Shown: positions 2,452-17,406 of the stretch, in pieces | Layout of the letters: the number at the start of each line of letters is the position of its first letter | How positions within the stretch are numbered: position 1 is the stretch's first letter | Source of the DNA: Pseudomonadota bacterium | Lineage (GTDB): Bacteria > Pseudomonadota > Gammaproteobacteria > Burkholderiales > Burkholderiaceae_C | Assembly: GCA_031119395.1 (NCBI GenBank) | Contig: JAVHYA010000010.1 | Coordinates: 1-64,000 of the forward strand | Length of the DNA stretch: 64,000 nt | Reading direction: 5' to 3' | Notes under the pieces: model-generated | Told to the model about the DNA's origin: nothing | The model's database searches: none | Seen by the model: the letters and a program-made list of their open reading frames with translations, nothing else | Translations under genes and position numbers: made by a program

Positions 2452-3168
2452 ATGATGTCATCGGCACCCGCACTCGAAATCAAGGGCCTGCAGGCCTGGT
2501 ACGGCGAATCGCATGTGCTGCATGGCGTCGACATGGTCGTGCAGCCGGGCGAGGTGGTCACGCTGCTGGGCCGCAACGGCGCCGGGCGAACCACCACGCT
2601 GCGCGCCGTCATGGGCCTGACCGGCACGCGCAAGGGCAGCATCCGCGTCAACGGCCAGGAAACCATCGGCCTGCCCACGCACCGCATCGCGCACTTCGGC
2701 ATCGGCTACTGCCCCGAGGAGCGCGGCATCTTCGCCAGCCTGTCGGCCGAGGAGAACCTGCTGCTGCCGCCGCCGCTCAAGGGCAGCGAGGCAGGCATGT
2801 CGGTCGACGAGATCTACGCCATGTTCCCCAACCTGGCCGAGCGGCGCCACAGCCAGGGCACGCGGCTGTCGGGCGGCGAGCAGCAGATGCTGGCCGTGGC
2901 GCGCATCCTGCGCACCGGCGCGCGGCTGCTGCTGCTCGACGAGATTTCCGAAGGCCTGGCGCCGGTCATCGTGCAGGCCCTGGCCCGCATGATCACCATG
3001 CTGCGCGCCAAGGGCTACACGGTGGTGATGGTGGAGCAGAACTTCCGCTTCGCCGCGCCGCTGGCCGACCGCTTCTACGTGATGGAGCACGGGCGCATCG
3101 TCGAGAGCTTCGGCGCGCCCGAACTGCAGGCCAAGATGCCGGTGCTCAACGAATTGCTCGGCGTTTGA
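2452..3168 (+). CDS. livF: LivF-type ABC ATPase with arginine in Walker A
   Basis: A 238-residue ATPase of the LivF group, partner of LivG in the same transporter. The signature LSGGEQQ is at 139-145 and Walker B LLLLDE at 159-164. The Walker A motif at 40-48 reads GRNGAGRTT: the phosphate-binding lysine is replaced by arginine (codon CGA, 2587-2589). Walker B is followed by ISEGL where PSEGL is usual. The protein is otherwise full length, so this is not obviously decay; I have an unverified memory of the same substitution in other betaproteobacterial LivF proteins. Start ATG 2452 (a second ATG follows at 2455) is preceded by GGGAGG. Confidence 0.93.
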   Translation: MMSSAPALEIKGLQAWYGESHVLHGVDMVVQPGEVVTLLGRNGAGRTTTLRAVMGLTGTRKGSIRVNGQETIGLPTHRIAHFGIGYCPEERGIFASLSAEENLLLPPPLKGSEAGMSVDEIYAMFPNLAERRHSQGTRLSGGEQQMLAVARILRTGARLLLLDEISEGLAPVIVQALARMITMLRAKGYTVVMVEQNFRFAAPLADRFYVMEHGRIVESFGAPELQAKMPVLNELLGV

Positions 3169-7714: not shown

Positions 7715-8791
7715 TCAAAGCCGCAGCGCCGCCGCGTATCCCGTCATCTCCAGGTAGCCGTGCCCCACGGTGCGGCCCTGCGCGTCGCGCAGCGCACTCA
7801 GGCCCTCCCAGTAGATCGCGCCGGTCGAGCCGCGGCTGTCCAGCTCCTGGTCGTCGAGCAGCGAGGCGACCTCGAAGCGGCCTGCCGGCGTTTCGATCGT
7901 CCACTGCACCGGATAGCGCCCGCCCGAGCGCGGACTGGCCCACACGCGCCCGGGCGTGAAGCGCACGTCCTGCGGGCCGAAGGCCTGGACCGCGCCGCCC
8001 GGCGCGCGCCAGGATCCGCCGACCCACAGCGCCGAGCCGTCGCGTCGCCGCAGGCGGAAGGCGGTGAGCGCGCTGCCGTCGTCGAGGTTCATGCCGGTCC
8101 AGTCCCAGCCCACGGCCTCGGGATGCATCAGCGCCTCGCTCCATTCGTGGTCCAGCCAGGCCCGGCCGGTCACGTCGAGCGGGGCCTGCCCCCGCAGCGC
8201 GATGCGGCCCTGCACGGCCAGTTGCGGCTCGCTGTAGTAGTAGCTGGCCTGCGACGCGTCCGGCCCCTTGCGCGACAGGCCGGCACTGCCCTGCAGCAGC
8301 AGCGGCTGCGTGGGCGCGAAGCGCAGCGACAGGCCGAAGCCCTCGGCGCCCGCATCCGCCGCCACCTCGGCCTGGTAGCGGCCGCTGGCGGCATCGCGCG
8401 CCAGCGACCAGTCCTGAAGCCGCACGTCGGTGTCGGCCTCGGAGGCGCTCGCGATGCCGAAGCCGGCGCGCGCGATGCGCTGCTCGTGGCGCAGCTGGCG
8501 GCCCTGCAGGTCCGTCACCGCCGCGTGCGCGAACAGCAGCTGCTTCGCCGCGAAGGCCGAGCGCATCGGTTGCGTGGCATCCACGCGCGAGCGGAAGAAG
8601 GTGACCTGGAAGCCCAAGCGCCGTCCACCGGCCGCCTCGGCATGGCCGGTGATGTACCACCACTCGGTGCGCAGCTCGGGATGGCTGCCGAAGTCGCGCG
8701 GGAACTGCAGGGTGCGTGGCGGCAAGGCCTTCGCCGACATGGCCCAGGCCAGTGCGGGCAGCAGCGCCAGGGTGTGTCGACGGGTCGGCAT
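7715..8791 (-). CDS. AttH/CrtC-like lipocalin-domain secreted protein
   Basis: A 358-residue protein of the AttH family (lipocalin-like, related to carotenoid 1,2-hydratase CrtC). The hallmark motifs are TEWWYITGH near 41-49, a VTFFRSR segment, AWLDHEWSE mid-protein and GWDWTGMNLDDG. The N-terminus (PTRRHTLALLPALAWAMSAKA) is an export signal, possibly twin-arginine. The family is usually encoded beside a LolD-like ATPase and an FtsX-type permease, as here, and is thought to act in the cell envelope; its reaction is unknown in most bacteria, and no carotenoid genes are present. Start 8791 lies 23 bases after the cysteine-synthase-like gene. Confidence 0.85.
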   Translation of the reverse strand: MPTRRHTLALLPALAWAMSAKALPPRTLQFPRDFGSHPELRTEWWYITGHAEAAGGRRLGFQVTFFRSRVDATQPMRSAFAAKQLLFAHAAVTDLQGRQLRHEQRIARAGFGIASASEADTDVRLQDWSLARDAASGRYQAEVAADAGAEGFGLSLRFAPTQPLLLQGSAGLSRKGPDASQASYYYSEPQLAVQGRIALRGQAPLDVTGRAWLDHEWSEALMHPEAVGWDWTGMNLDDGSALTAFRLRRRDGSALWVGGSWRAPGGAVQAFGPQDVRFTPGRVWASPRSGGRYPVQWTIETPAGRFEVASLLDDQELDSRGSTGAIYWEGLSALRDAQGRTVGHGYLEMTGYAAALRL

Positions 8792-14623: not shown

Positions 14624-15382
14624 TTGTCCGCATCGAACGCACCGCGCCCCGCCGCCCGCGCCCCGAACTTCCCACGCCCCCTCGCCTCCGTCGACGTGGT
14701 GCTCTTCACCGTGCAGGCCGATGCGTTGCAGGTGCTGCTGGTGCGCCGGCCCGACGGCGCGGCCGAGCCCTTCGCGGGCCGGTGGGCGCTGCCGGGCGGC
14801 TTCGTGGACGTGGAGGCCGACGCCAGCCTGCTCGACTGCGCGCTGCGCAAGCTGCGCGAGAAGACGGGCGCGATCACGCCGTACCTGGAGCAGCTGGGCA
14901 GCTGGGGCAATGCGACGCGCGACCCGCGCGGCTGGTCGGCCACCCACTGCTTCTATGCGCTGGTGCCGGCGCCATCCGTCGCGCTGCAGAAGGGCGCCAA
15001 CGCCACCGAGGTGCGCTGGTTCGACGCGGATGCCGCGCTGCGCAAGCGCCTGGCCTTCGACCACGTCGAACTGCTGGCCGCGGCGCTGGCGCGCCTGCGC
15101 GGCAAGGTCGAGTACACCTCGCTGCCCGCGTTCCTGATCGAGGAGCCATTCACGCTGCCCGCGCTGCAGCACGTCTACGAGGTCGTGCTGGGCCGACCGG
15201 TGGACAAGAGCGCGTTCCGCAAGCGCATGCAGGGCGGCGGCTTCATGGAAGAGGCCGGCATGCGTGCCGCCGAGGCCGGGCAACTGGGCCGGCCCGCCAT
15301 GACCTACCGCCTGCGCGACCGCTCGCAGGCGGCGCTGTTCCCGCGCACCTTCAACGCGCGCGGCACCGACGACCTGGCCTGA
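14624..15382 (+). CDS. NrtR-type Nudix-domain transcriptional regulator
   Basis: A 252-residue protein with an N-terminal Nudix fold (about 20-155) and a C-terminal winged helix (about 165-245), the layout of NrtR, which represses NAD salvage or synthesis genes and binds ADP-ribose. The Nudix box (GGFVDVEADASLLDCALRKL and following REKTGA) keeps the loop but has lost the canonical REXXEE acidic pair, consistent with a sensor rather than a hydrolase. The start is TTG 14624, the best fit to the family length; no ATG is available upstream near the gene. A pnuC-nadR pair at 45578-46896 is a plausible target. Regulon is inferred. Confidence 0.8.
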   Translation: MSASNAPRPAARAPNFPRPLASVDVVLFTVQADALQVLLVRRPDGAAEPFAGRWALPGGFVDVEADASLLDCALRKLREKTGAITPYLEQLGSWGNATRDPRGWSATHCFYALVPAPSVALQKGANATEVRWFDADAALRKRLAFDHVELLAAALARLRGKVEYTSLPAFLIEEPFTLPALQHVYEVVLGRPVDKSAFRKRMQGGGFMEEAGMRAAEAGQLGRPAMTYRLRDRSQAALFPRTFNARGTDDLA

Positions 15383-15467
15383 ACCGGCCGGCGCTACCAC
15401 CTCTGCCATATTGCCGCCGCATGCGGCCCTCGCGGATGCTGCGAGCTTCCACCGGAGGCAGCCGCGC

Positions 15468-15992
15468 ATGGCCCAGTTCACCGTCAATCCCCACCGCCTG
15501 GACCCCTACAAGGCCTTCAAATTCCGCGTGAAGTGGGACGGCCGCTACGTCGCCGGCGTGAGCCGCATCTCGGCCCTGCGCCGCAGCACCGAGGTGATCG
15601 AGTACCGCGAGGGCGGCGACCCGTCGTCGGTGCGCAAGTCGCCGGGGCGCACGAAGTTCGACGCCATCACGCTGCAGCGCGGCGTCACGCACGACGTGGA
15701 GTTCGAGCGCTGGGCACAGAAGGTCTGGAACCTCGGCGGGGGCCTGGGCGCGGAGGTGTCGCTCAAGGACTTCCGCAAGGACCTGATGATCGAGCTCTAC
15801 AACGAGGCCGGCCAGCTCGTGCTGGCCTACAAGGTGTACCGCGCCTGGGTGTCGGAGTTCGTCGCGCTGCCCGAGCTCGACGCGAACGCGCACGCCGTCG
15901 CGATCCAGCGCATCCGGCTCGAGAACGAGGGCTGGGAGCGCGACACCGAGGTGGTGGAGCCGGCCGAGCCGTCCCTCGGTGGGCCGGCCTGA
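15468..15992 (+). CDS. Contractile injection system tube protein (gp19/Afp1-like)
   Basis: A 174-residue T4 gp19-like tail tube protein of the eCIS type. Diagnostic segments are DPYKAFKFRVKWDG near 12-25, STEVIEYREGGDPSSVRKSPG at 40-60, LQRGVTHDVEFERWA near 69-83 and NAHAVAIQRIRLENEGWERD at 140-159. In eCIS particles this protein forms the inner tube. Only one other injection-system gene follows, 15 bases downstream; sheath, baseplate, spike and AAA ATPase genes are absent here. ATG 15468 is preceded by GGAGG. Confident on family, not on function in isolation. Confidence 0.88.
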   Translation: MAQFTVNPHRLDPYKAFKFRVKWDGRYVAGVSRISALRRSTEVIEYREGGDPSSVRKSPGRTKFDAITLQRGVTHDVEFERWAQKVWNLGGGLGAEVSLKDFRKDLMIELYNEAGQLVLAYKVYRAWVSEFVALPELDANAHAVAIQRIRLENEGWERDTEVVEPAEPSLGGPA

Positions 15993-16007
15993 GCGGCGGG
16001 CCGGGCG

Positions 16008-16568
16008 ATGAAGGAGGCCGCATTGCTCAAGGCCGGCCTGCTCGTGCTGGCGCCCGACGGCGCCGCGGTGCGGCAGGCGCTCGTCTTCCAGTTCAACCCC
16101 GACACGCTCACGCGCCAGATCGGGCCTGCGCCCGGCGCTGCGCCCGGCGAGGCGGCCGCGGTGGTCGAGACGATCCGCGTCGAAGCGCATTTCGATGCCC
16201 TGGCCGAGCCGGCCGCGAGCCCGGCACTGCCGGGCATCGCGCCGGTGCTGGCTGCACTCGAAGCGCTGGTGCTGCCCGAGGCCCACGCGCCGGCGCAGCG
16301 GCCGCTGGTGCTCTTCGCCTGGGGACGGCAGCGCGTGCAGCCGGTGCGCGTGCTCGCGCTGGACATCGTCGAACAGGCCTTCGACCGTGCACTGAACCCG
16401 CTGCGGGCGCAGGTGACGCTGCACCTGCGTGCCCAGGCGGCGCACGAGCTCGGCGCCGGCGGCCGCGGCGCGAAGCTGCTGGCCGCCCATGCGCGCACGC
16501 GCGCCGCGCTGGCGGCGCAGGTCGGGCCGCAGGGGCTGGAGGCGCTGGGGCTGGCCGCACCGCCTTGA
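16008..16568 (+). CDS. eCIS-associated protein, CIS-tube/Afp7-like
   Basis: A 186-residue protein sharing the segment VFQFNPDTLTR (26-36) and a later LVLFAWGRQRVQPVRVLALDI-type block with VEQAFDRALNPLRAQV (about 101-137) with proteins found next to tube genes in extracellular contractile injection clusters. The FNP motif is the mark of the CIS_tube/LysM-type tube-initiator family; here there is no LysM domain. Being 15 bases after the tube gene on the same strand it must be co-transcribed. The C-terminus is an Ala-rich helical tail. Assignment is from memory of family motifs. Confidence 0.7.
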   Translation: MKEAALLKAGLLVLAPDGAAVRQALVFQFNPDTLTRQIGPAPGAAPGEAAAVVETIRVEAHFDALAEPAASPALPGIAPVLAALEALVLPEAHAPAQRPLVLFAWGRQRVQPVRVLALDIVEQAFDRALNPLRAQVTLHLRAQAAHELGAGGRGAKLLAAHARTRAALAAQVGPQGLEALGLAAPP

Positions 16569-16638: not shown

Positions 16639-17406
16639 ATGTCCTTTTCCGTCGAAGCCATCGAACGCGCCACGCTGGCGGCCGTGCCGCCGGACACCCT
16701 CGAAGAGCAGCCCGGCTGGCTGGTCGCGCTCGACGCCGGCACGGTGGGGCGCGCGCACAGCGCCGTGCCGCTGCACCACGGCGTGCCCGATCTGTCGCTG
16801 CTGCCGCCGATCGAGGCGCGCTACCGCGCGGCCGGACTGCCGCCGGTGTTCCGCCTCCCGGTGGAGACGCCGGCTTTCGCCGACTTCCATGCGGCGCTGC
16901 GCGAGCGCGGGTACGTCCCCTCCCGGCCCACGCTGGTGATGACCGGCAGCGCGGCCGCCATGGTTGCGGGCGGGCGCCCCGACGCCGTGCAGCTCGACAC
17001 CCAGCCCGGCGAGGCGTGGTCACGCGTGTACCTGGGCGAGGGCTTCGACCCCGTCGACGGTGCGCACCGCGTGCGGCTGCTGCGCCGGGCGCAGGACGCG
17101 GTGTATGCCGGCGTGCACCTGGCGTTGGAGCCCGACGCGCCCGAGCAGCTCGGCGCCGTCGGCTGCGCCTGCTTCAGCCACGGCCTGGTCGGCGTGCACG
17201 GCATGCGCACGCGCCCGCGCTTTCGCGGCCGCGGCCTGGCGCGCCAGCTCATGGCCGCCATGGGCGTCGAAGCCCAGCGCCGCGGCATCGTGGACGCGTT
17301 CCTCCAGGTGGAGGTGGAAAACCACCTGGCGCGATCGCTGTACGCGCGCATCGGCTTCGAGCCGGCGTGGACCTACGTGTACTGGCAGCAGCCGTCGGCG
17401 GGCTGA
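16639..17406 (+). CDS. GNAT-family N-acetyltransferase
   Basis: A 255-residue protein with a C-terminal GNAT domain (about 150-250): VHGMRTRPRFRGRGLARQLM is the acetyl-CoA-binding motif A (R/Q-X-X-G-X-A form RGRGLA), then EVENHLARSLYARIGFE is the motif B region. The N-terminal half is a second, degenerate GNAT-like domain. Start ATG 16639 follows a 70-base gap after the eCIS pair. The substrate is unknown; the family often acetylates amines or protein N-termini. Confidence 0.85.
   Translation: MSFSVEAIERATLAAVPPDTLEEQPGWLVALDAGTVGRAHSAVPLHHGVPDLSLLPPIEARYRAAGLPPVFRLPVETPAFADFHAALRERGYVPSRPTLVMTGSAAAMVAGGRPDAVQLDTQPGEAWSRVYLGEGFDPVDGAHRVRLLRRAQDAVYAGVHLALEPDAPEQLGAVGCACFSHGLVGVHGMRTRPRFRGRGLARQLMAAMGVEAQRRGIVDAFLQVEVENHLARSLYARIGFEPAWTYVYWQQPSAG

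Follow-up and report, generated by a model that had tools for sequence, protein, structure and literature searches.

The 64-kb window analysed here (the whole stretch of DNA, 64,000 nucleotides) carries a small cassette of two genes that split off from an extracellular contractile injection system (eCIS), is under strong purifying selection and is unlikely to be a decaying relic. The genes encode an inner-tube protein and a shortened tube-starter protein of a contractile injection system (CIS), and the same pair, headed by a conserved leader, was found in related genomes and in a second genus.

Identification of a tube gene and a Cis7-like gene

As the original prediction had it, a tube gene and a CIS-tube partner lie side by side; both are on the (+) strand with 15 bp between them, and both score as coding (Table 1). 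The tube protein scored 145.3 bits against Phage_T4_gp19 (cut-off 28.2) and 146.7 bits against TIGR02241 (cut-off 62.4), and eCIS tubes were the closest solved structures in a PDB sequence search (All3324, E 3e-16); its family and PDB sequence matches are to gp19/eCIS tubes. Its predicted model (pLDDT 77.8) was weaker than that of the partner protein, and its best structural matches were again eCIS tubes, with Hcp structures fitting less well. We conclude that this gene encodes a gp19-type eCIS inner-tube protein, which bears out the predicted identity.

The partner was only partly supported by sequence searches. It scored 20.1 bits against Pfam CIS_tube, under the cut-off of 27, and the best E value in the PDB sequence search was 0.47, with no clear match. 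It could be aligned at 38–47% identity to four Cis7-like genes from eCIS loci, however, and the one aligned at 47% does clear the CIS_tube cut-off (29.8 bits). Its predicted structure (pLDDT 85.9) gave eCIS baseplate chains as the first seven Foldseek matches, led by 6j0n_b (E 7.5e-08) and followed by 9qgl, 7aeb, 6rao, 6rbk, 7b5h and 9gtp; from their length we take these chains to be the Cis7 homologues of their particles. VIA-align gave Z scores of 10.2–11.2 over 134–140 residues for the eCIS baseplate chains, and Z 12 for two phage P1 baseplate chains. The predicted fold retains the tube-like domain, and the protein ends after that domain and helices. Both the tube-like fold and the sequence similarity of the Cis7/Afp7 family are thus present, and the gene encodes a shortened Cis7-like tube-starter protein. 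Its length is 186 aa in Xenophilus and 206 aa or 203–209 aa (start uncertain) in the two carriers from a second genus described below, compared with mostly 216–223 aa (full range 154–246) for Cis7 of eCIS loci.

Table 1. Features of the cassette and its immediate neighbours in the window
Feature	Position	Strand	Description
NrtR-like NUDIX/winged-helix regulator	14624-15382	+	Neighbour, outside cassette; same neighbour in 6/6 carriers
Cassette leader	15394-15467	+	CTACCACCTCTGCCATATTGC block at 15394-15414, then GGAGG ahead of tube ATG; candidate promoter/operator
Inner-tube gene, gp19/Cis1-like, eCIS-type	15468-15992	+	174 aa; family, PDB and structure matches
Cis7-like tube-starter gene, shortened	16008-16568	+	186 aa; alignment to eCIS Cis7-like genes, predicted fold
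Rv0428c-like GNAT acetyltransferase	16639-17406	+	Neighbour, outside cassette

Other machine parts in the window and the genome

Searching the window by tblastn with 17 eCIS-part queries, we found no further CIS gene, in agreement with the predicted lack of a sheath, baseplate, spike or ATPase. Two linked CIS genes are all that occur in the window and at the corresponding loci of congeners: there is no sheath beside the tube, and no VgrG-like Cis8 spike in the window or at the congeners' loci. A LysM/gp53-like gene is likewise absent from the window, whereas it was present in all 75 eCIS loci among the best 80 listed in a genome scan (see below); that this separate gene is of LysM nature is suggested by a gp53 match below cut-off. 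Because the component queries were taken from one relative, a baseplate of unusual type might have escaped them. Among the genes next to the pair we recognised none for an effector or cargo, and PADLOC gave no match for eight proteins (the pair and six flanking genes).

The genome as a whole (5.1 Mb in 167 contigs, 99.87% complete) has one gp19 tube gene, that of the pair, and one sheath gene, which stands alone on another contig. Two gp25 genes were found, in a genome-wide search made for this genome only, and both are inside T6SS loci with TssF and TssG. These loci (L029 on G000:C115, L030 on G000:C60) have gp25/TssE-like, TssF, TssG and Clp-type ATPase genes, and L029 also has a VgrG-type gene. 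Neither the Pvc16_N/DUF4255 cap nor an Afp11-like baseplate protein was found in any of ten genomes of the genus (our own and nine congeners), while the positive control, the eCIS-bearing genome G027, has both. Since the congener G007, assembled in about ten contigs, also lacks the cap and the Afp11-like protein, contig breaks are unlikely to be the cause of their absence. An eCIS ATPase query gave only partial matches to AAA proteins in the genus (29–39%), which we read as generic.

A check of the genome for sheath, baseplate and ATPase genes therefore yielded a lone sheath on another contig, no Afp11-type baseplate protein, gp25 in T6SS loci only, and generic AAA proteins. No complete eCIS was found elsewhere in the genome, as judged by tube, sheath, gp25, cap, Afp11 and ATPase. 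The description of the pair as an orphan holds, and the component searches lend no support to the suggestion that it is used with a system encoded elsewhere, or to the alternative that it duplicates the tube genes of a complete eCIS.

Distribution of the pair

Among 100 genomes including our own, 12 gave a match to the Cis7-like protein and 23 a match to the tube. The pair is present in our genome, which belongs to the GTDB genus of Xenophilus, and in five of 14 congeners (G007, G009, G012, G013 and G014), where the tube is 95–97% identical. The gene order NrtR, tube, Cis7, GNAT is the same in all six carriers, so the pair is conserved together with its neighbours. In G004 the pair is missing, and the NrtR-like and GNAT genes adjoin with 63 bp between them; this reflects either loss of the pair in G004 or its gain after G004. 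The remaining eight congeners have the GNAT gene without an adjoining NrtR-like gene.

We then looked beyond the genus by scanning GTDB genomes with a Cis7 alignment, keeping the best 80 loci, so that the number of carriers is a lower bound. These comprised four Xenophilus pairs, one bare pair (L134) and 75 loci with adjoining eCIS parts, every one of which has both VgrG-like and LysM/gp53-like genes. The bare pair is in G100, a metagenome-assembled genome (MAG) named Variovorax sp., and has no other eCIS part on the 12.6 kb of sequence examined. In the Variovorax-type genus of this MAG, the tube was matched in 34 of 101 genomes, and in 17 of these at 74% identity or above; inspection of these 17 showed a sheath beside the tube in 15 and a bare pair in two, namely G100 and G160 (L270, on a 4.69-Mb contig). 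No sheath was found in the G100 MAG, whose completeness is not given. Across the 78 loci in which both genes were located, the tube adjoins Cis7 solely in orphan cassettes (12 rows including duplicates, versus none of 66 eCIS rows).

The two Variovorax-type loci share one block of DNA (1,237 columns, 82.9% identity), which begins 79–80 bp upstream of the tube gene and ends 2 bp past the Cis7 stop. The block is thus exactly leader, tube and Cis7, and the rest of the two loci gave no alignment at E 1e-5. The cassettes known to us occupy three unrelated chromosomal sites.

On viral contigs we found eight tube relatives and one Cis7 relative, with a sheath match on seven of the eight tube contigs, and no viral contig found has a tube adjoining Cis7. 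The IMG/VR contig L294 has a tube relative at 2521–3027 (67%) and no sheath match on its 5.1 kb. Of 44 plasmid records with a tube match, 11 were inspected, and ten have a sheath beside the tube and one is unannotated; Cis7 gave one partial plasmid match. Tubes of Streptomyces phages are just 33–35% identical to the window tube. A lone tube (67%) at 8276–8761 of L110 (G071:C11), near a contig end and on 9 kb that matched neither Cis7 nor sheath, is possibly a third orphan form.

A conserved leader and common origin of the cassettes

The sequence TCTGCCATATTGC occurs exactly, 65–68 bp upstream of the tube ATG, in all seven cassettes compared (five Xenophilus genomes and two Variovorax-type; G014 was omitted as its locus repeats that of G009). 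It is absent upstream of 67 eCIS tubes, and the longest match between the window leader and those 67 leaders is nine bases. Leaders of the two genera match over 13–21 bases. In 1,000 shuffles of one leader the longest match was 14 bases (mean 6.9); as shuffles reach 14 bases at least once in 1,000, single pairwise matches of 13–15 bases prove little, and the argument from the leader rests on the shared position across the seven cassettes. With up to one mismatch, the motif was found once elsewhere among the loci examined (L111). Scans of the leader for sigma-70-type promoters and terminators found none, and its predicted RNA structure is no more stable than that of shuffles (z 0.39). We consider the leader a candidate promoter or operator.

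The proteins also suggest that the cassettes of the two genera are related. Six derived tube residues (38, 44, 65, 132, 136 and 142) are common to both cassette groups, an overlap with a hypergeometric P of 7.8e-5, and any of 33 eCIS rows shares two at most. For Cis7 there are 11 common changes (P 0.005), a weak overlap because single eCIS rows reach nine. The tube tree grouped the cassettes weakly (72/30). In a Cis7 tree of 106 rows, which carries letter-make-up and long-branch warnings, the two cassette groups were adjacent and not on one side of a branch; in a tree of 41 rows they formed one group (SH-aLRT 96), the 34 eCIS rows of that tree having been picked after seeing the larger one. 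Taken together, these comparisons indicate that the cassettes of both genera likely share a common origin.

Selection on the two genes

The cassette is under strong purifying selection. Over ten pairs from five Xenophilus genomes (again without G014), omega was 0.11–0.18 for the tube and 0.28–0.40 for Cis7, which evolves faster; over the same ten pairs, the four genes that flank either the pair or the lone sheath gave 0.04–0.28. All Fisher tests against the window gene were significant, with p from 1.2e-4 to 6.2e-8 for the tube (four of four comparisons) and from 8.2e-6 to 3.3e-8 for Cis7, and in the Variovorax-type pair non-synonymous changes were also far below synonymous ones (p 7e-20 for the tube, 3e-17 for Cis7); these tests were run on rounded counts of the differences between related genomes, and they lack independence. 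The frames are full-length in all six Xenophilus carriers and of equal length in the five copies compared, so the decay of the frame in relatives that would have argued for a relic was not seen.

The two proteins differ in what they have kept. Conservation of 85% or more across 33 eCIS tubes marks 109 columns, of which the tube retains 97, a pattern that a continued need for ring stacking would produce. In Cis7, of 80 conserved columns, 30 are lost in Xenophilus and 16 in L134, and this loss, together with the missing LysM/gp53-like gene, is expected if baseplate contacts were dropped. The tube is thus tightly held, while Cis7 is altered and its putative baseplate-linking partner is gone.

A proposed product and its alternatives

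In one solved CIS, the tube begins with a layer of Cis5 and a layer of Cis7, and a LysM domain of Cis7 ties the tube to the baseplate proteins Cis9 and Cis12 (PMC8894136). The parts kept in the cassette are those that in such a machine start and make up the tube body, and the anchor, sheath and cap parts are missing from the locus. The simplest functional reading is a sheathless tube or ring stack that Cis7 would start. We infer that the pair still assembles, with Cis7 as nucleator and the tube as functional product. In the explanation we favour, tentatively and at somewhat less than an even chance, the pair is a free-standing cassette whose Cis7-like protein would assemble into a hexameric starter ring, with tube hexamers stacking on top of it. 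The product would be a cytosolic, sheathless and baseplate-free tube or ring stack, unable to contract or inject, and the tube itself would be what functions, as a scaffold, container or chaperone. A fuller version, in which a self-promoted cassette moved between chromosomal sites and uses eCIS parts to build such a non-injecting tube or ring with an intracellular role, is possible but slightly more doubtful. A point against the favoured explanation is that tube growth in related tails normally depends on a baseplate for its start. Of the readings first offered for this pair, that of a minimal tube serving a new purpose holds up best.

The sheath gene on the other contig raises the alternative that the parts are scattered, and that pair and sheath together make a tail trunk, either contractile or stabilised, that has no baseplate. 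This sheath (L028 on G000:C134, 2703–4448, (−) strand) is an intact protein of phage/eCIS type, 581 aa long, with a conserved leader of its own. All five pair-carrying congeners have an intact copy (78–82%), with a GTPase gene and an AspA-like gene as its neighbours in every case, and its omega of 0.22–0.40 indicates purifying selection, all of which would fit a shared trunk. The lone sheath does not, however, group with the sheaths that adjoin this tube type; it groups with those of another eCIS type (G044, G091 and G047; SH-aLRT 99, in a quickly built tree that carries composition and long-branch warnings), which points to other ancestry. The pair's leader motif was not found ahead of it, its leader being different. 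It is syntenic in seven of 15 genomes of the genus, including G004, which has a 57% copy without the pair, and conversely G100 has the pair and no sheath match. Co-occurrence in six related genomes may also be plain inheritance. We consider a scattered trunk unlikely and treat the lone sheaths as findings separate from the pair. A second lone sheath type (502–530 aa, in metabolic surroundings) is present in G005, G006 and G008 (L107 1311–2900, L108 8620–10212 and L109 9264–10772), genomes without a match to the window tube. Further genes with a sheath domain, whose open frames span some 400 aa (G009:C1:155400, G014:C10:40072, G010:C18:312908 and G011:C10:129523) are possibly prophage genes.

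It is improbable that the pair supplies tube and Cis7 in trans, as helper or spare parts, to some incoming eCIS, T6SS or contractile phage, or to one whose genes lie elsewhere. The two T6SS loci of the genome would offer a recipient, and one report describes orphan hcp/vgrG/PAAR islands for T6SS that are often independent of full clusters (PMC13098142). By its sequence families, however, the tube looks eCIS-type and not Hcp, the ten genus genomes have no eCIS cap or Afp11-type baseplate, and the pair was not seen on the viral contigs found, with Cis7 giving only the partial plasmid match.

We also give little credence to the pair acting as a decoy that poisons or senses related contractile tails, be they of a phage, a tailocin or an eCIS, while they assemble. 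A small selected cassette at different sites would suit such a role, and DSR2–tube entries were among the weak fold matches; DSR2 is a defence sirtuin that phage tube proteins bind and trigger. On the other side, PADLOC matched neither the pair nor its six flanking genes, and the closest tubes are host-made eCIS parts, not those of invaders. Least probable is the first suggestion of the original prediction, a slowly decaying and functionless relic of a lost eCIS, since the shortened Cis7 with its lost columns and the absent partner genes are outweighed by intact frames, by selection in both genera, by the conserved leader and by the same pair in a second genus. If the pair does assemble, it shows that a contractile machine's tube can be put to use again without the other parts, and the cassette would be a very small natural parts set for testing how tube polymerisation starts.

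Comparison with known systems

Two published surveys of eCIS bear on the pair. One, of clusters only, reports Cis7 in 638 of 639 and Cis8 in 639 of 639, and its eCIS call requires the baseplate, tube and sheath-initiator classes all to be present (PMC12210884). In the other, Geller et al. set the minimum at four linked genes and ten core genes (PMC8213781). By both sets of criteria a selected tube-plus-starter pair would not appear. We found no description of an orphan eCIS tube/Cis7 pair among the titles and abstract openings searched, preprints and most subscription papers being outside that scope.

The orphan hcp/vgrG/PAAR islands are similar in that tail parts likewise stand away from a main cluster (PMC13098142). 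Those islands carry Hcp, spike and tip, whereas the pair combines an eCIS-type tube with a starter and lacks both spike and tip; the carriers tested yielded no eCIS cluster. Compared with complete eCIS, the window tube is 79% identical to that of G027 (L036) and 73–74% to those of Streptomyces, an example being the plasmid eCIS of Streptomyces europaeiscabiei (NZ_CP109155.1); the Cis7-like proteins of the window and G027 are 47–51% identical. In these complete systems a sheath gene precedes the tube, while in the window the tube has its own leader, and in G027 several genes separate the tube from the Cis7-like gene, which is accompanied by LysM/gp53-like, VgrG-like, gp25, baseplate, cap and ATPase genes. 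The thylakoid-anchored CIS of Anabaena (7b5h) matches the pair in its tube by sequence and in its Cis7-like starter by predicted fold, but it is a full anchored machine, in which binding to the baseplate is through a LysM domain of Cis7 (PMC8894136).
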